Below are positions 37,491 through 38,239 of a stretch of 64,000 bases of DNA, in pieces. Made by a program: the position numbers and the translations under genes. The notes beneath the pieces were generated by a model. The model made no database searches. It had not been told where the DNA came from and saw only the letters and a list, made by a program, of their open reading frames with translations. This DNA comes from Archangium sp. (GTDB lineage: Bacteria > Myxococcota > Myxococcia > Myxococcales > Myxococcaceae): the NCBI GenBank assembly GCA_030695565.1, contig JAUYRZ010000007.1, positions 1 to 64,000 of the forward strand, read 5' to 3'. Numbering within the stretch: the first letter of the stretch is position 1; the number at the start of each line of letters is the position of its first letter.

Positions 37491-38051
37491 TTACCGCGCG
37501 TCGAAGGCCTCGAGGATGACCTGGGCCGCGGGGCGCACCGTGTACGTCTCTGCCAGTGAGCGCCACTGCACCACGCCTTCGGCGTCGGTCAGGAAGACCG
37601 CAGGCCAGGCGATGTCGTTGGCCGGGTCGTAGACGCCGAACGCGCGGGTGAGCTGGCGATCGACGTCGAGGCCGAGCGGGAAGGTGAGGTGCAGCCGCTC
37701 GATCAACGCCTGGCTCTTCGCCAGGTCGTCGACCGAGACGGCGACGAGCCTCAGCCCCCGCCGTTCGAACTCCGCCTTCTTGTCGAGCAGCTCACCGAGC
37801 TGCGTTCGGCAATACGGTCACCAATGGCCCCGGTAGAAGAACAGGGCCGAGGGTTGGCCGTGCAGCGAGAGGGTGGAGCCGTCGGTCATGGCGAGCTTCA
37901 GGTCAGGCACCTGCGCGCCAACGTCGAGCGCCTGCTCGAGCCCGGCAGGGGGCGTCTTGCGCCGCGCCTCGGGCGGAAAACCGCCAGCCTTCATCACGGT
38001 CGCACAGCCGCCCAGGAGCAGGGCCAGCACCAGAGCGGTTCGAGCACGCAT
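37491..38051 (-). CDS. Peroxiredoxin-like selenoprotein (lipoprotein, UxxC redox motif)
   Basis: The coding frame runs from ATG 38051 (GGAGAAGCC upstream) to the TAA/TGA stop at 37491, interrupted once by TGA at 37818-37820. Read as Sec, this gives 186 residues: a lipoprotein signal (LVLALLLGGC), then an AhpC/TSA-type fold. The TGA lies exactly where this family has its first redox Cys, in FFYRGHW-U-PY-C-RTQL (Sec78, Cys81). The part after TGA is plainly homologous (RLVAVSVDDLAKSQALIERL, then AVFLTDAEGV) and in frame with no other defect. A perfect hairpin with a GGU loop begins 14 nt after the TGA (SECIS entry). It should reduce peroxides or disulphides at the envelope. A nonsense-mutated pseudogene is the alternative. 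Confidence 0.87.
37787..37820 (-). promoter_or_regulatory. Bacterial SECIS-like element with its UGA codon
   Basis: On the coding (minus) strand, TGA at 37820-37818 is followed after 14 nt by GCAGCTC-GGT-GAGCTGC (37803-37787), a perfect 7-bp stem with a 3-nt loop. The first loop base is 22 nt after the UGA, inside the usual bacterial SECIS window, and the loop begins with GG, matching the conserved G requirement. Bacterial SECIS elements lie within the coding region as here. Confidence 0.82.
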
Positions 38052-38062
38052 GGCTTCTCCTA

Positions 38063-38239
38063 TCACGTTCCGCGGATGTTCAGGCGGGAGCGTTCATGGC
38101 GCCGATCGGGCCGCGTCGCCGAGGCGCCCGGCGCGCCCTCGTTGCCCCAACCGCCCAGCCCGGGCCCACTGCCCCAATCGCGCAGGTCGGGAAACGCGCC
38201 CCACATGCTCAGCTTCTTGCTCTTTCCTGGAGTGGCCAT
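38063..38239 (-). CDS. 58-residue Gly/Trp-rich hypothetical protein
   Basis: Starts MATPGKSKKLSMWGAF, continues DLRDWGSGPGLGGWGNEG and ends RRHERSRLNIRGT. Its stop lies 11 bp before the selenoprotein ATG on the same strand, so the two are probably co-transcribed. Third-position GC is about 80%, above random for short frames but below the best genes here. No hydrophobic segment or known motif. It accounts for most of the 314-bp gap at 38052-38365. Could be a real co-factor protein or a chance frame. Confidence 0.45.
   Translation of the reverse strand: MATPGKSKKLSMWGAFPDLRDWGSGPGLGGWGNEGAPGASATRPDRRHERSRLNIRGT

Follow-up and report, generated by a model that had tools for sequence, protein, structure and literature searches.

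The stretch of DNA analysed here, called the window below, comprises 64,000 nucleotides of an Archangium sp. contig (JAUYRZ010000007.1) and carries on its minus strand (38051-37491) a candidate selenoprotein gene of the AhpC/TSA (PF00578) family. The frame runs from an ATG at 38051 to a TAA ending at 37491, and encodes 186 residues if its sole in-frame TGA, codon 78 (37820-37818), is read as selenocysteine (Sec). From sequence comparisons, it is very probable that this UGA is decoded as Sec by the organism's own SelA, SelB, SelC and SelD, and that the product is a likely envelope-tethered UxxC thiol-disulfide oxidoreductase with a peroxiredoxin-like fold. The observations behind the original prediction of a selenoprotein, namely the frame with its single TGA, a lipobox-like LGG-C16, an AGGAG and a hairpin, all on the minus strand, were confirmed. 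The prediction itself is supported by the Sec machinery of the genome, the conservation of the TGA and the intact sequence downstream of it.

Machinery and conservation of the UGA

The original prediction pointed to selA, selB, selC and selD as the genes to look for, and all four are found in the window genome (8.5 Mb in 134 contigs; one assembly seen). The matches for selA (547.6 bits), selB (295.6 bits, in a 701-residue frame) and selD (375.3 bits) exceed their cut-offs, and one tRNA-Sec with the anticodon tca lies above the gathering score. ARAGORN finds no tRNA within the window; the tRNA-Sec sits on another contig.

Relatives were sought with the protein in 99 genomes, and then with a profile (A1) in 147 genomes of the class and 195 of the phylum, all counts taking in the window's own genome; in the class and phylum searches, scoring was limited to the top 16-22 candidates of each genome. 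The phylum search yielded nine genes with E <= 1e-28: the window gene, two genes of G083, and one each of G085, G101, G158, G081, G182 and G009. In all nine, a TGA aligns with position 78, and the eight relatives of the window gene belong to other genera. The TGA is also present in four lower-scoring genes (L062, L064, L066 and L134). The next-ranked gene, from G139 (9.0e-27), is without it and reads FYRGGWCPFC. The gene of G009 is spread over two contigs, with the downstream piece at 3.6e-37 and the TGA-bearing piece at 1.8e-24. Downstream of the TGA, its product is 64% identical to the window protein over 102 residues, in keeping with the earlier claim that this part continues in frame and is homologous. 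Across the nine genes, the protein is conserved on both sides of the TGA, and the sequence that follows is not decayed.

The G009 copy breaks exactly at the hairpin (end of L057, start of L058). Both contig ends carry an inverted repeat of 21 bases, 17 of them matching, which suggests that a mobile element was inserted. In the window organism's genus, the five other genomes, two of them about 80% complete, show no close copy (best E 3.1e-17), and the gene is thus sporadic. A single-sequence scan of the genome contigs returned four loci, all distant (27-35% identity) and none with the TGA. A match in the window's own genome (C121:9072), listed with one TGA, was not counted; it is a PF00578 match without stops and without a tblastn alignment.

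The SECIS-type hairpin

The predicted bacterial selenocysteine insertion sequence (SECIS) hairpin, GCAGCTC-GGT-GAGCTGC (37803-37787, minus strand), begins 14 nt past the UGA and lies within the codons for QLGEL. According to Fig. 2A of PMC13188914, bacterial SECIS elements have a loop of 3-9 nt, a stem of 4-16 bp, a G within the first two loop bases, a distance of 16-37 nt from UGA to loop, and an energy <= -7.5 kcal/mol. The window hairpin (GCAGCUC-GGU-GAGCUGC) satisfies these rules, with 7 bp, the loop at 21 nt from the UGA and -10.1 kcal/mol. Without bulges, the rules are satisfied by 10 of 12 evaluable TGA genes (L057, broken at the hairpin site, was left out) and by 2 of 14 Cys controls, which are the Cys genes with a like motif among the loci then in hand. 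The geometry noted in the original prediction is thus upheld, but the window hairpin by itself is weak evidence. Because the plain fold z-score of the region after the UGA held no signal, conservation tests were used in its place.

In five core genes, the QLGEL codons CAG, CTC, GAG and CTG are identical, and the Gly codon is GGT in four genes and GGC in one, GGT being rare (5.6% of the Gly codons in these genes). Among nine other invariant residues (40 codons inspected), two have a single codon (TGC at U+3, TTC at U+17), and the codon varies for the seven from U+24 to U+38. It is because distant relatives retain both the TGA position and the hairpin codons that the finding stands above chance.

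L062 and L066 (the G091/G083 pair) are more distant UxxC genes; their products have short N-termini, and their SECIS hairpin is of another form (loop AGTTG). Between them, the 6-bp stem is kept with one pair altered on both sides (GUCAGC/GCUGAC to GGCAGC/GCUGCC).

Active site, proposed mechanism and rival explanations

When position 78 is taken as C, the translated sequence scores 101.6 bits against PF00578 (cut-off 26) and 70.5 bits against PF08534. None of 13 NCBIfam models tested reaches its cut-off, the best being SelL_rel_redox (NF040769) with 45.4 of 120 bits. The motif at the Sec site is UPYC. The original prediction had placed the UGA on the first catalytic Cys of an RG.WCPYC motif. 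Homologues of this type do carry Cys there, but the position is not the peroxidatic one: Sec78 aligns with the Thr/Ser of the peroxiredoxin TxxC, and it is Cys81 (37809..37811), the second residue of UxxC, that aligns with the peroxidatic Cys. Pro150 (37602..37604, in AWPA) occupies the position of the peroxiredoxin Arg, and a helix begins at residue 79. The classical peroxiredoxin active site consists of PxxxTxxC/U plus an Arg (PMC13188914). The window protein deviates from this pattern, with RxxxUxxC and with Pro150 where the Arg is expected.

The N-terminus, MRARTALVLALLLGG-C, has the makings of a lipoprotein signal by motif, with a charged start, a hydrophobic stretch and a lipobox Cys (Cys16, 38004..38006, the predicted lipidated residue), and the protein is likely tethered to the envelope. 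An AGGAG at 38057..38061, 5 nt before the ATG, is the likely ribosome-binding site as read from the sequence.

The positions of Sec78 on the Ser/Thr of TxxC and of Pro150 on the Arg, together with the helix from residue 79, are the grounds for proposing an oxidoreductase mechanism. SelB and Sec-tRNA(Sec) would bind the GGU-loop hairpin 21 nt downstream, so that Sec is inserted and translation does not terminate. The protein would then be exported and lipidated at Cys16. Sec78 may attack a disulfide or a peroxide-oxidised substrate, like the N-terminal Cys of thioredoxin, the resulting selenenylsulfide would be resolved by Cys81, and the enzyme would be reduced by a thiol donor of the envelope.

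A number of observations weigh against this assignment. The presence of selA is expected and tells little, since it scores above the cut-off in 130 of the 147 class genomes, and co-occurrence with selA was dropped as uninformative. Three of the eight relatives (L055, L056 and L059) were themselves part of profile A1, along with two Cys forms. The 76-nt region after the UGA is ordinary when compared with dinucleotide shuffles (z 0.29; 121 of 200 fold equally well or better), and when the window gene was recoded at random with synonymous codons, 359 of 4000 versions also obeyed the SECIS rules (for the other 11 genes, the number per 4000 is 6 for L062, 39 for L066 and up to 1085 for L059). The five core hairpins are almost identical and therefore amount to few independent cases. 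The hairpin of L132 is 0.1 short of the energy threshold, and that of L133, at -4.1, passes only with a bulged C (-8.1). The lipobox that the original prediction had listed along with the ribosome-binding site is present, as is the latter, but it is not general, being found in just 4 of the 13 TGA genes. The nearest folds are peroxiredoxins, which are peroxidases. Finally, an inspection by eye of the neighbours of six relative loci, with no family scan, revealed no common partner.

If the TGA were a pseudogene lesion or a sequencing error, only a stub of 77 residues would be made. A single base change from TGC or TGT would suffice, and there is one assembly for the genome. This explanation can hardly be credited in view of the identical TGA in eight relatives of other genera, the conserved downstream sequence and the retained hairpin codons. 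A protein without selenium would result if the UGA were otherwise recoded, either read through by a near-cognate tRNA as Trp or Cys, or decoded by a tRNA-Sec that carries Cys. The sequence alone is compatible with such recoding, yet it is very improbable, because the TGA occupies the redox Cys site of the homologues and is followed by a SECIS-type hairpin, in a genome that has both SelB and tRNA-Sec.

The peroxiredoxin folds nearest to the window protein would suit a selenoprotein that reduces peroxides directly through Cys81 or Sec78. We regard a peroxidase as the less likely reading, as Sec replaces the Thr/Ser of TxxC, Pro150 replaces the Arg, and the UxxC is thioredoxin-like. Beyond the oxidoreductase reading, which we prefer, we suggest tentatively that these proteins could form a subfamily of their own, made up of selenoenzymes anchored in the envelope, whose peroxiredoxin scaffold has been turned into a ResA-like reductase with Sec for the catalytic Thr and Pro for the catalytic Arg. 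With the SECIS written in the QLGEL codons, RNA structure would fix these residues in addition to protein function, and the genes would stay hidden because gene callers cut them at the UGA.

Cysteine forms, known relatives and neighbouring features

Two protein searches yielded Cys relatives with RG.WCP(Y/F)C, namely P0002, P0003, P0012, P0013 and P0014, whose Cys takes the place of the in-frame UGA. Of the 102 proteins listed in the second search, 17 were examined. They bear out the expectation that gene callers split genes of this type: P0016 and P0038 correspond exactly to the downstream parts of the UGA genes in L132 and L133, respectively. A further four (P0026, P0039, P0028 and P0109), some from short contigs, resemble one-sided pieces as judged from the protein alone. 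P0026 and P0039 share 72% and 76% identity with the window protein across 49% and 44% of its length, and P0109 terminates at FYRGDW. A tree built from 12 Sec rows and 17 selected Cys rows intermixes both types, with 9 changes (bootstrap range 7-10, not settled), about the number given by shuffled labels. The starred branches demand one change only, and the tree thus does not fix the count of Sec/Cys exchanges. With its conserved UGA and hairpin and the Sec machinery in the genome, the gene is a well-supported addition to the selenoprotein candidates, and shows that annotation can lose UGA genes as fragments. The natural Sec and Cys forms are available to compare what Sec brings to an envelope redox enzyme.

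The kind of protein is already known from published Prx-like UxxC families. A Prx-like family of selenoproteins ('Prx-like protein') in which UXXC replaces TXXU is described in PMC1088965, PMC2398784 has 225 'Prx-like 1' PF00578 sequences with UxxC, and Table 1 of PMC13188914 lists a 'Prx-like thiol:disulfide oxidoreductase' (PF00578, UxxC/UxxU), cd02970 (UxxS) and Redoxin (PF08534, UxxC). By description, not by sequence, the window protein is like the Prx-like UxxC selenoproteins in combining PF00578 with UxxC in place of TxxU. It differs in its lipobox, 'lipoprotein' and 'signal peptide' being absent from the main text of PMC2398784. The window protein also matches the Redoxin family PF08534, and is set apart by description from the Peroxiredoxin-like family cd02970, which has UxxS and not UxxC. 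With the Sec peroxiredoxins (TxxU; peroxi_PrxU, NF040737) it shares the fold superfamily, but their Sec is peroxidatic, whereas that of the window protein is at the Thr position, and the NF040737 score is 29.6 against a cut-off of 270 bits. The ResA/TlpA thiol-disulfide oxidoreductases of the envelope have a CxxC-type motif and the thioredoxin fold, and ResA structures match the window protein by sequence profile and fold. However, its ResA score is 44.7 bits against a cut-off of 170, and the nearest folds are peroxiredoxins instead. The fold list contains peroxiredoxins and ResA-type proteins, and does not shut out other families. There may also be a likeness to eukaryotic SelU/PRXL2.

Anaeromyxobacter dehalogenans is a myxobacterium. 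Eleven selenoproteins are in print for it, with no UxxC Prx-like protein among them in the passage of PMC1794560 that lists them. Our literature searches, judged from the records listed, brought up no selenoprotein of the UxxC Prx-like type from a myxobacterium.

The window genome has a second predicted Sec gene (G000:C134:95082-95447; L079, L131), a classical peroxiredoxin with FTPG-U-TRE (TxxU) and an 8-bp hairpin (loop GGAC, -11.3 kcal/mol). A possible third Sec gene of the same fold (G000:C30:102209-102460, minus strand; L093) reads RHFG-U-LLC, has a weak PF00578 match below the cut-off, and is followed by an 8-bp hairpin (loop GTT, -11.9 kcal/mol). Relatives also contain further peroxiredoxin genes in which a TGA falls on query position 81, the peroxidatic site, like the Sec of TxxU selenoproteins: L063, L047, L069, L071, L072, L074 and L106.

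Rfam at gathering cut-offs gives no match in the window. A neighbouring gene encodes a TIGR02265 (Mxa) protein, which suggests a myxobacterium. An open frame of 58 codons (MATPGKSKKLSMWG..., found by eye; 38063-38239, minus strand) ends 11 nt upstream of the selenoprotein ATG, and is possibly a coupled small gene or a chance occurrence.
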